DNA from: Cochliopodium minus
Lineage: Eukaryota; Discosea; Himatismenida; Cochliopodiidae
Reading direction: 5' to 3'
DNA length: 20,651 bases
Assembly: GCA_024220525.1 (NCBI GenBank)
Contig: JAMYWO010000214.1
Coordinates: 21,953 to 42,603 of the forward strand
The notes below the pieces were generated by a model. It was not told where the DNA came from. It saw nothing but the letters and a program-made list of their open reading frames with translations, and did not search any database. Positions 8,117-12,891 of this stretch are shown here, in pieces. The translations under genes were made by a program, and so were the position numbers. The first letter of the stretch is position 1. Each line of letters begins with the position of its first letter.

Positions 8117-8155
8117 AAAATTTTTACTAAGAAAATTTGAACTGTTGTAATATTN

Positions 8156-8742: not shown

Positions 8743-9795
8743 ATGGAAATCGAACAAATTTCTTTATTTGAATCTTTAAAAACTGATACATTTTTCACTC
8801 AGATTGATTGTTCTAATATTGGAAAAGATTTTGGGGTTGAATATTTTTCTGATTCTTTAAAAAAAAATACATCCCTTACTTCAATAAATCTGTCAAATAA
8901 CAGAATGGGAGATAAAGGAGTAGAATATCTTTCTAATGTTTTAAATATTAATTCTTCAATAGCACATATTGATTTAGAAAATAATAAAATAGGGGATTGG
9001 GGAGTAAGACATCTTTCTGATTCACTCAAAACAAATTTTTCTTTGACATCCATCAATCTTTCAAATAATAAAATAGGAGAGGATGGAATGAAATTTCTTT
9101 GCAAATCTTTAAAAACAAATTCCTCTTTGACTGAACTCTATCTTAATCACAATTTTATCTGTGAAAGTGGAATGAAATTTTTGTCGGAAGCATTAAAACT
9201 AAATTCCTCTTTGATTTCTATTCATCTTTCTGATAATACAATAGGAGAGGAAGGAATGAAATTTCTTTGCAAATCTTTAAAAACAAATTCTTCTTTGACT
9301 TTTCTTGATGTTTCCAACAACGAAATAAGAGATAAAGGAATGGAATTTCTTTGCGAATCTTTAAAAACAAATTCCTCTTTGACTGAAGTCTTCGTTAACC
9401 TTAATGGAATAGGAGATTTGGGGGTCAAATATTTATCTGATACTTTAAAGATAAATTCTTCTTTAACATCTATTCATCTTTCTGATAACAAAATAGGAGA
9501 CAAGGGAGTGGAATATCTTTGTGAATCTTTAAAGGTAAACACATCCTTGCTTCAAATCAAAATTGAAAATAACGAAATGGGAGAAGAATCGATGGATTAT
9601 CTTAAGAGTTTTTTTATAAATTCAAATTTGTTTGAAAAAGAAGGAAGAGAAACCCAAGAAGATGTGGAGATACAAGAATTAAAGCTGATCATTCAAAATC
9701 AAAAACAAATGATTGAAAATCTCCAAAAAGAAAATGAAGACCTAAAACAAAAAAACAAACTAATACTTGAAAGAGCTGATCAGATTATTTTTTAA
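8743..9795 (+). CDS. RI-type leucine-rich-repeat protein with C-terminal coiled coil
   Basis: A single uninterrupted frame of 350 residues. The first ATG in frame is at 8743 (MEIEQISLFESL). The frame stays open upstream to 8698, but that stretch has no ATG. About nine ribonuclease-inhibitor-like LRR units of 28 residues follow the pattern L..SLK.NSSLT.I.LS.N.IGD.G...L. The last 50 residues are a predicted coiled coil (ELKLIIQNQKQMIENLQKENEDLKQKN). LRR horseshoes of this kind are protein-binding scaffolds, and the partner is unknown. DNA copies 168 nt apart (from 9073 and from 9241) are nearly identical, showing recent expansion by two-repeat blocks. It is the only confident multi-domain gene here without introns, and its codons are more AT-rich than those of the CLU or ligase genes. 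No signal peptide is seen, so it is likely cytosolic. Confidence 0.88.
   Translation: MEIEQISLFESLKTDTFFTQIDCSNIGKDFGVEYFSDSLKKNTSLTSINLSNNRMGDKGVEYLSNVLNINSSIAHIDLENNKIGDWGVRHLSDSLKTNFSLTSINLSNNKIGEDGMKFLCKSLKTNSSLTELYLNHNFICESGMKFLSEALKLNSSLISIHLSDNTIGEEGMKFLCKSLKTNSSLTFLDVSNNEIRDKGMEFLCESLKTNSSLTEVFVNLNGIGDLGVKYLSDTLKINSSLTSIHLSDNKIGDKGVEYLCESLKVNTSLLQIKIENNEMGEESMDYLKSFFINSNLFEKEGRETQEDVEIQELKLIIQNQKQMIENLQKENEDLKQKNKLILERADQIIF
9073..9300 (+). repeat. Recently duplicated two-LRR DNA block
   Basis: The sequence from 9073 (ATAGGAGAGGATGGAATG) recurs from 9241 with few changes over about 57 bases. The 168-nt spacing equals two 84-nt LRR units. A third related copy of the TCTTTAAAAACAAATTCC word occurs near 9358. 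Confidence 0.75.
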
Positions 9796-9930: not shown

Positions 9931-10784
9931 TTAATTTTCCACCAAACCAATGATAATGAACAAAACAGGTTTTGGTATTTTGAAAAGTATGTTGAAAAAA
10001 GAAATCTTTTTCAAACACAACACAAACACTTTAATTCTATCTTTGAATTCTTTTGGAAAGTATTTGTGTTCTACTGGAGACCAATCCTAATAAAGTGAAA
10101 TTAAAAAAAAATTATAAAATAATAATTATAAAAAAAAGATTTTTTTTTTGTACAAATAAAAGAAGATTGTTTTGAATCATTTTGATATCAAATTCAAGTC
10201 TAGAAGCAATGTTTCTGTTTATTGTATCTCCTATTCCTAATTGATAACTATCTGCATCTCCACAAACAAATATTTCTTTATTTCCTAACAATAAAAATTG
10301 ACAGAAATTTATTTTTATTTAAAACAATAAACAAAATAAAAATTAATAATTATAAAAAATAAATTTTTTTTACTGTTAACGAAAATAGAATGACTGTATC
10401 CAGTGGTAATGAAAGAAATGTTTTGAAGATTAGTTTTTGTAAAAGAAGAATAATCATTGTAATTTCCTAATCCTAGTTGTCCATATTGATTATGTCCACT
10501 CCCATAAACTTCTCCATCTCCTAAAATTGATATTTTTTTTATATTTTTTTATATTTTTTTATATTTTGATTTTTGTATTTTTTTTATTTTTTTTTTAATA
10601 TTTTTTTAATATTTTTTATTACTTGTTAAAATCAAAGTAAAATTTCCACCACAATGTACAGAAGAAATATTTGGAAAAGATTTTATTGTATGAATTGAAA
10701 ATGTATTATTGGTATTCTCAATTCCTAATTTCCCAAACTTATTATTTCCAAAGCATTTCAAGATTGTATTTCCTTTTTCTTCTC
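9931..10784 (-). CDS. RCC1-repeat C-terminal part of the RNA ligase fusion gene
   Basis: Four minus-strand exons, 10784-10623, 10520-10374, 10284-10154 and 10086-9931, join in phase and end in TAA. The first three each encode one RCC1-like unit of about 50 residues (CFGNNKFGKLGIEN, GSGHNQYGQLGLGN, CGDADSYQLGIGD). The first two also carry the partner strand (SSVHCGGNFTLIL, FITTGYSHSIFV). The last exon encodes a box starting DWSPVEHKYFPKEFKDRI and ending IPKPVLFIIIGLVEN, which resembles, from memory, a C-terminal element common in amoebal RCC1/BTB and ankyrin proteins. There is no in-frame ATG at the 5' side. The first exon begins after an AATAG acceptor in phase 1, so it must continue an upstream exon. 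Three repeats are too few for the usual seven-bladed propeller. The phase matches the donor of the inverted ligase exon at 11381. Confidence 0.8.
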
Positions 10785-10943
10785 CTATTTTTGGTTTTAA
10801 TTTATTTTTTATTTTTTATTTCAAATTTTTTCTTTTTTTTAAATTTTTATTTTTTATTATTTTTTTTTTCATTAATTTTGAATTTTCATTTTTTTTATTT
10901 GTTATTTTCATTTTTAAATTTTTTTTTGCATTTATTACTTTAG

Positions 10944-11381
10944 GAGGAAAGATTGATGACATCAAAGAATGGATGAAAAATATCAAAAGTGAAGAAAAAA
11001 TAGAGGGGTTTGTCATCCAATTCAACGATGGAAGAATGTACAAAGTCAAAACTGAATGGGTAAGAAAAATATTTTTTTAAAAGAAAACAATTTTAAAAAT
11101 TAAACTTAAAATATTAAAATTAAGATTAAAAATTAAAAAATTAAAATTAAATAAATATTCAAAACAAAAAATTTAAAAAAATTTAAAAAATTTAAAAAAT
11201 TTAAAAAAATTTAAAAAAAATATAAAAAAAATTGAATTGAATTTATTTTTTTGGTTTTAGTATTTTGAAAGAACCAGAAAGGATAAACAAGAATATTCTT
11301 TTAATTCAGAGAGAAACATTTGGAACATCATTTTGAAGCAGGAAATCGACGACGCTGCTCCATACATGGATACCAAACTAA
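10944..11381 (+). CDS. Inverted ligase exons carrying motifs IV and V
   Basis: Two plus-strand exons, 10944-11059 and 11261-11381, encode the second half of a T4 Rnl1-type nucleotidyltransferase. They contain motif IV (EGFVIQFNDG), motif V (KVKTEWYFERT) and the start of the C-terminal domain (NSERNIWNIILKQEIDDAAPY). They have no start codon and no confident stop. The first begins after a CTTTAG acceptor in phase 1 and the second ends at CTAA before GTAAAA in phase 1. The rest of the same ligase is on the minus strand immediately to the right (11438-12891). Its last exon ends AATGAAG in phase 1, an exact phase fit to the exon at 10944. These exons are therefore inverted relative to their own gene. 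Confidence 0.88.
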
Positions 11382-11437
11382 GTAAAAAAAAAAAAAATTA
11401 TTTTTAATTCATAAATGAAAAATAAAAAAATTTTTAC

Positions 11438-11796
11438 CTTCATTGTTCCACCTTTCGGCAACAAACACATTTTTGAAATTTTTTGCAGAATTTACAACTT
11501 CCTATATTTAAAATCAATTAATGTTTTTTTTTTTTGTTTTTTTTTTTATTTTTTTTAATTTTTTAAATTTATCATATTTTTTGTTTTTTTTTCTTACATT
11601 GTAAGGAATGTAGTTTCCAGAGACGTTCTCACGAATGGCCAACAACACCAAAAGATCGTTTTCATACTCCAACACAATTCTTGTTCTCAGAGAACACCAC
11701 TCAAAAAGAGGTGTACACCCTTAAGTTCAAAAATAAAAATAAAAAATTTGAAATAAAAAAAAAAAATAAAAAATAAAAAATTTGAAATAAAAAATG

Positions 11797-11827
<31 letters not shown>

Positions 11828-12891
11828 TAAAAATAAAAATTTTTAAACAAATTATCTTTTTTAAAATGAGAAAGAAAATACCTTTGTTGATCCATTCATC
11901 GCAGAAGTCGTAGATGGATTTACCTTTGTCTTCGTATTGGAGGAGATATCTTTCTTCAATGATTTTCTTGATGTTATTGTCTCCAGACTTTGAAGCGAAA
12001 ATTACATTTCCCTTTGTTTTCACTTTTATAATAAAATATAAATAAATAAATAAAATAAAAATAAAAATAAAAATAAAATAAAAAATTTGTAACCAAATGA
12101 ATAAAAAAAATTCTTTTAAAATATAAAATAGGATAAAATGTAAATTAAAAATTAAATACAAAATAATAAAAATAAAATAGAAATAAAATGTAAAGTAAAT
12201 ACAAGAAATAAATTGATATAAAATACTAAATTTAAAAAAAATAAAAACCTGGTGAAACTAATGTCCTTTATTGTTTGATTAGAATTGTTTAAAAAAAAAA
12301 AAAAAAGATTTTAGATTTATTTTTATTATTTCTTTTTTTACCCATCATATTTTGTAACGATGGTATGTGGTTGGGAAAGATCTATTTTTTCCTCTGCTGT
12401 CTCATCAGATTCTCCGATGTTGAAAAACTTGTGGAATCTTCTCGCAGCTACCAATCCTGTTTCTTTGAAAAAGATGATCCCTCTGCATTCTCTTTAAAAG
12501 AAATTTGAAAGGAAAATTTATATTTTGTTTATTTTATGAGTTAATAGCATATTAACTCATATTCTGATTGTATTATCAACCTTTTTTATAAGAGATAATT
12601 TTATTCTAGATATATAAGAAATAATATGAAGGAAAATTGATCAATTCTTATGAATATACATTATTTTGGCTTAGGAAGATTAATTGTTTTATACCTCTTT
12701 ATATGCCACAATCTCTTTGTTTTTTCATCTTTTGCCGTTTCTGGATCCGGGAAGGTCGATTTGTTGCAAAATCTGTAATTGATGTAGACGAGATCATCTA
12801 TCTCTGTTACCTTGAATTCTCTGCAATTCTTGATGCATTCCAACGCTTCTTCCAATTTGATATTCACTGCAAAAACTGAATTTGTCTCCAT
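11438..12891 (-). CDS. T4 Rnl1-type RNA ligase, N-terminal and catalytic part
   Basis: Six exons: 12891-12695, 12491-12342, 12265-12249 (17 nt), 12022-11882, 11719-11598 and 11501-11438. Seen in order are a short N-terminal region (METNSVFAVNIKLEEAL), the pre-motif ECRGIIFFKETG, and ARRFHKFFNIGE. Motif I follows as TKYDGTLVSP with the AMP-accepting Lys at residue 113 (Lys99 in T4 Rnl1). Then come TKGNVIFASKSG, motif III (TPLFEWCSLRTRIV) and LLVLLAIRENVSGNYIPY. This is the full Rnl1 order up to motif IIIa. Motifs IV and V are missing downstream on this strand and lie inverted at 10944-11381. Enzymes of this family join RNA ends by Lys-AMP, AppRNA and phosphodiester steps, and act in tRNA splicing or RNA repair. 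No kinase or cyclic phosphodiesterase domain is fused. The start is the only ATG ahead of the conserved region. Confidence 0.9.
12249..12265 (-). other. 17-nt micro-exon in ligase motif I
   Basis: The exon lies between an AATAAAG acceptor and a GTTTTT donor. With two bases from the exon before and one base into the exon after, it codes for GTLVSP, which completes motif I (KYDGTLVSP). Without it the frame breaks and the motif I strand is lost, so the exon is well supported despite its size. Confidence 0.75.

Follow-up and report, generated by a model that had tools for sequence, protein, structure and literature searches.

Predicted pieces of a T4 Rnl1-type RNA ligase gene on opposite strands, beside part of an RCC1-repeat gene, in the genome assembly of Cochliopodium minus

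Gene content of the window

The stretch analysed here (the window) comprises 20,651 nucleotides of Cochliopodium minus and corresponds to positions 21,953 to 42,603 of contig JAMYWO010000214.1 (C214:21953-42603) in GenBank assembly GCA_024220525.1, which totals 44,654,751 bases in 598 contigs. It is AT-rich, the GC content per kilobase ranging from 0.18 to 0.27. A 12-exon gene model had been proposed for this DNA (the original prediction); it was rebuilt base by base and all of its exons and splice sites were verified. The features are listed below.

12695..12891, minus strand: ligase exon 1 with the ATG; open frame, GT donor, aligns with the C531 and C2 paralogues
12342..12491, minus strand: ligase exon 2, ending in KYDG, which aligns with TKEDG of the T4 Rnl1 chain 2c5u
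12249..12265, minus strand: ligase mini-exon 3 (17 nt), defined solely by its frame and GT-AG borders; its counterpart in 2c5u is LVS
11882..12022, minus strand: ligase exon 4 (splice sites, paralogue alignment, profile)
11598..11719, minus strand: ligase exon 5, FEWCS..RIVL region (splice sites, Pfam, paralogue alignment, profile)
11438..11501, minus strand: ligase exon 6, the last ligase exon on this strand, with a phase-1 end (paralogue alignment; weak profile match, E 0.021)
11382..11437, no strand: right junction, 56 nt separating two splice donors that face each other, no N
11261..11381, plus strand: ligase exon P2, with a phase-1 end (splice sites, paralogue alignment, profile)
10944..11059, plus strand: ligase exon P1, containing EGFV and KVKTEW (Pfam, 2c5u match, paralogue alignment)
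10785..10943, no strand: left junction, T-rich and intron-like, separating the RCC1 fragment from P1, no N
10623..10784, minus strand: RCC1-repeat exon R1, from an RCC1 gene truncated at its 5' end (91% identical to the C476 copy; Pfam RCC1)
10374..10520, minus strand: RCC1-repeat exon R2 (family alignment, splice sites, Pfam)
10154..10284, minus strand: RCC1-repeat exon R3 (family alignment, splice sites)
9931..10086, minus strand: last RCC1 exon, R4, with the stop (C-terminus the same as in the C476 copy)

The six ligase exons on the minus strand sum to 691 nt, contain no stops and are separated by GT-AG introns. The two on the plus strand, of which the second starts at 11261, sum to 237 nt and are open, with a GT-AG intron; taken singly, these two exons were stop-free by chance in 176 and 156 of 3000 shuffles. 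KYDG at the close of exon 2 is taken by us to be motif I, and EGFV and KVKTEW in P1 are presumably motifs IV and V. There is no ATG ahead of P1 in the plus frame, and reading through the P2 donor leads to a stop within 24 nt (frame 11261-11404).

Elsewhere in the window, positions 8743-9792 of the plus strand hold a single open frame that encodes leucine-rich repeats (PF13516, 6e-36) and is convergent with the RCC1 fragment, and positions 1351-1644 of the minus strand hold an exon matching the CID domain (PF04818, 1.3e-10). A tRNA scan of the window found none; the promoter scan used a bacterial pattern and has no bearing on a eukaryotic window.

Two strands, one ligase

The minus-strand piece matches PF09511 (RNA_lig_T4_1) over profile positions 1-169 with 104.6 bits, against a family cut-off of 28.3. 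Its KYDG aligns with KEDG of T4, and the nucleotidyltransferase domain lies above the curated cut-off. The plus-strand piece matches positions 180-227 with 18.8 bits (E 0.0016), which is under the cut-off of 28.3. Joined, the two pieces cover the whole profile (1-227, 127.4 bits) and match T4 RNA ligase 1 chain 2c5u with an E-value of 1e-24 (query 66-300 on chain 52-274); no match to the last 100 of the 375 residues of this chain was found in the joined pieces.

The pieces were aligned with the proteins of three paralogues, on C531, C2 and C400, deduced by splicing by eye. In this alignment P1 continues directly from exon 6, without a gap or an overlap. The plus-exon residues EG, YK and K-W are identical in the window and all three paralogues, to which the joined ligase is 39% (C531), 37% (C2) and 41% (C400) identical. 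The proposed fit between the exon end at 11438 and the exon start at 10944 holds, both being phase 1.

By profile search, the N- and C-terminal ligase parts share a strand at C531, C2, C400 and C14, the four loci of close paralogues, and occupy opposite strands in the window. The paralogue profile was built from an alignment containing the window, so that the window's own scores with it are circular; C14 stands outside that alignment. At five more divergent loci (C8, C1, C45, C223 and C118), the C-terminal part gave no useful profile score. The genome contains at least 10 loci with Rnl1-type ligase matches (11 matches), an unusual number; none of the 14 control genomes was matched.

Judged by domain profiles, phase and paralogue alignment, the pieces on the two strands complement each other as parts of a single Rnl1-type ligase, and on this point the original prediction is borne out. 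The window departs from T4 Rnl1 in that motifs IV and V lie on the strand opposite to motif I, outside its reading, and in that the tail is unmatched; the position of these motifs makes the gene, as assembled, a broken member of the T4 Rnl1 family. As assembled, no single-strand transcript can encode the complete ligase domain.

With several ligase loci in the genome (11 matches at 10 loci), the plus-strand exons might instead come from another gene, such as a second ligase remnant lying head to head with the first. The plus piece, however, begins exactly where the minus piece stops in the domain, the phase fits, the plus frame lacks an ATG before P1, and the four close paralogues retain their own motif IV-V part; we regard this origin as very unlikely.

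The C531 and C400 paralogues carry a C-terminal tail of about 75 to 100 residues that is absent after P2: the exon ends near the end of the profile, a donor and a stop come next, and the neighbour is RCC1. When the tails of C531 and C400 served as queries for an orphan ligase tail, the matches were the query loci themselves, the first part of the tail on C2 (E 6.1e-7) and hits no better than chance (E of 0.12 or above). This failure proves little, since neither query recovered the tails of all paralogues.

The RCC1 fragment

The exons from 10784 to 9931 had been counted as part of the ligase. They match RCC1 repeats instead (PF00415, 2.7e-18; PF13540, 2.3e-16), with 90.3 bits to PF25390, below its cut-off of 150. 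Each of R1-R4 aligns with its counterpart in the 3' half of an extensive RCC1 gene family of the same genome, with shared intron places and C-terminus; the nearest relative among the matches listed is the C476 copy. By its Pfam matches and family alignment, this stretch is the 3' half of an RCC1-repeat gene and not ligase.

In intact members of the family, R1 is preceded by at least four additional RCC1 exons (X1-X4). These are absent from the window, which leaves an incomplete repeat set of R1-R4 only, and there is no start codon in the RCC1 frame upstream of R1 in the window. Of the 80 R1 exons inspected, 67 are preceded by X4 on their own strand (median gap 88 nt), and at most 13, the window included, have no upstream X4; this count used 80 of 118 R1 and 91 of 150 X4 matches, from the best 150 of 257 and 150 of 388 candidates, respectively. 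The figure of 13 is therefore an upper bound; the decayed C353 copy, for example, has weak X4 pieces.

Two further observations concern this family. On C353, two RCC1 copies offset by 2916 nt (L037, 3393-5594 and 6309-8510) agree at every one of 2202 nt; either a tandem duplication took place very recently or the assembly has duplicated the sequence. C476 carries a further RCC1 copy (L036, 5963-6606), which consists of X1-X3 only and ends at a single N.

The original prediction held that flipping one segment rebuilds a gene of 12 exons and 508 codons. The arithmetic is right, in that the six minus, two plus and four further minus exons sum to 1524 nt, stop included, but the product spans two unrelated genes and no ligase is rebuilt. 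The proposed join of 11381 to 10784 fares similarly: P2 ends and R1 starts in phase 1, but R1 belongs to RCC1, and the match is a one-in-three coincidence, the phase of R1 coming from the phase-1 intron that the RCC1 family has there.

A single inversion could nevertheless have split one ligase-RCC1 fusion gene of 508 codons. The phases would fit at both joins, and the RCC1 half is undecayed without having an in-frame start of its own upstream of R1. In none of the four close ligase paralogues, however, does the ligase continue into RCC1; the RCC1 part would supply an incomplete repeat set, the C-terminal tail of Rnl1 would be absent and the phase match is of the coincidental kind just described. 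A fusion gene is therefore considered unlikely.

The two junctions

Both breakpoints lie in AT-rich introns, as had been stated. The short inverted repeats proposed at the breakpoints did not stand up: the inverted similarity between the junctions scores 41 against a background mean of 33.0, a score at least equalled by 32% of 2000 random AT-rich pairs and by 64% if the better orientation is taken. Inverted-repeat pairs numbered 102, yet this is at background. Intron strand asymmetry was tried as a means of placing the breakpoints and rejected, the sense AT skew of the introns spanning -0.48 to +0.55.

These values bear on a heterozygous or switchable inversion that flips the motif IV-V exons. 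Such a switch would accord with the undecayed state of the exons, but a junction similarity matched by about a third of random pairs does not favour it, no second copy of the ligase part was present among the best 40 of 3056 DNA-match candidates, and flipping the segment back would leave an RCC1 fusion. We consider it highly improbable.

Alternatively, the two strands might be transcribed separately and joined by trans-splicing, leaving a working gene. Splice sites and frames are intact in both pieces, and the abstracts of two papers on Giardia describe split nuclear genes that are trans-spliced (PMC5224939, PMC4085374). The likeness, as far as those abstracts go, lies in gene pieces that stand apart and retain intact half-introns; unlike theirs, the intron halves of the window do not pair. 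Among 300 shuffles, duplexes of equally low energy arose in 12.7% and 24% of cases (z -1.18 and -0.63), and a product joined in trans would still lack the complete ligase tail. In none of the 80 R1 exons examined was X4 found on the opposite strand within 3 kb, so that no general habit of scrambled genes is seen in the RCC1 family. Trans-splicing is accordingly rated as exceedingly improbable.

Because both junction similarity and intron pairing are at background, neither a switch nor Giardia-like trans-splicing gains positive support. Among the papers listed by literature searches on inversions within genes and opposite-strand trans-splicing, no case matched the window. That the arrangement is real and the gene functional, whether through opposite-strand exons joined in trans or through a segment that flips amid low-complexity introns, is a reading to which we give very little credence.

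Sequence divergence

No piece shows decay, all exons being open and all splice sites intact. Over 190 codons, the RCC1 fragment differs from the C476 copy by dN 0.074 and dS 0.145; the values are 0.114 and 0.304 for the fragment against the C316 copy, and 0.13 and 0.269 for the intact control pair C476 and C316. No dN/dS ratio is given for the ligase against C531 since the synonymous sites are saturated. The undecayed pieces fit an artefact or a very recent event, and would equally fit a working gene.

Contig ends and single Ns

Among the matches listed, four of the 13 closest RCC1 copies have no X4: those of the window, C259, C589 and C90. The C259 copy has a contig end 98 nt upstream of R1, the C589 copy a contig start 133 nt upstream and the C90 copy a single N 30 nt upstream. 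Contig ends so near R1 are expected in 0.026 of 13 copies and were observed in two, the 150-nt limit for nearness having been chosen after the data were seen. Conversely, inspection showed that five of the 16 closest X4 exons among the matches listed (C4, C127, C47, C336 and C36) are not followed by an R1 within 1.2 kb; split halves of both kinds therefore exist.

Ten single Ns were seen in the window and the loci examined (220,332 bases), seven bordering low-complexity sequence and three in ordinary sequence. Those of the window are at 8155 and 19186. Single Ns seem to mark some joins elsewhere in the assembly; the three in ordinary sequence mean that N as a join marker is not proven. SSPACE-LongRead inserts one or more N at joins according to gap size (PMC4076250). 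Conceivably the present assembly was built with a tool like it.

The assembly error offered as one option by the original prediction thus gains some support from contig ends and an N at the same RCC1 intron, but there is no N at either window junction. A small false inversion is unusual if an assembly is made from long reads.

Origin of the arrangement

The break in the ligase gene is probably one compound junction, at which the fragment carrying motifs IV and V is turned round and the RCC1 half adjoins. The ligase would have been cut after exon 6 and the RCC1 gene before R1, the sequence between them being lost, and the P1-P2 fragment would have been placed backwards between the ligase and RCC1 remnants. 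The 3' end of the ligase and the 5' half of the RCC1 gene may both have disappeared in this same junction. An inversion alone is insufficient, because the first half of RCC1 and the ligase tail are missing; a deletion or misjoin is also needed, and it presumably ran from the ligase intron to the RCC1 intron before R1. We infer that deletion and inversion were linked in one event.

Lost flanks with an inverted piece kept between them are reported for a deletion-inversion-deletion at CEP78 (PMC6286558). The likeness to such variants lies in the lost flanks and the retained inverted piece, whereas in the window the deletions are deduced from missing exons and no wild-type allele is seen.

An assembler that turned and misjoined pieces would yield the same picture. 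An assembly error at the AT-rich introns has close to an even chance of being the cause, and a real, recent deletion-inversion that killed this ligase copy is a plausible though somewhat less probable one; we lean slightly towards the former, the latter being almost as likely.

Implications

Most simply, the locus joins a broken copy of one known gene family to a broken copy of another, whether in the chromosome or in the assembly, and is not a new kind of gene. In AT-rich genomes, gene models may join pieces of unrelated genes when the phases chance to fit, and the RCC1 intron before R1 is a place where this assembly tends to break. If the arrangement were real and expressed, it would represent a rare case of nuclear opposite-strand trans-splicing or a flipping exon block.
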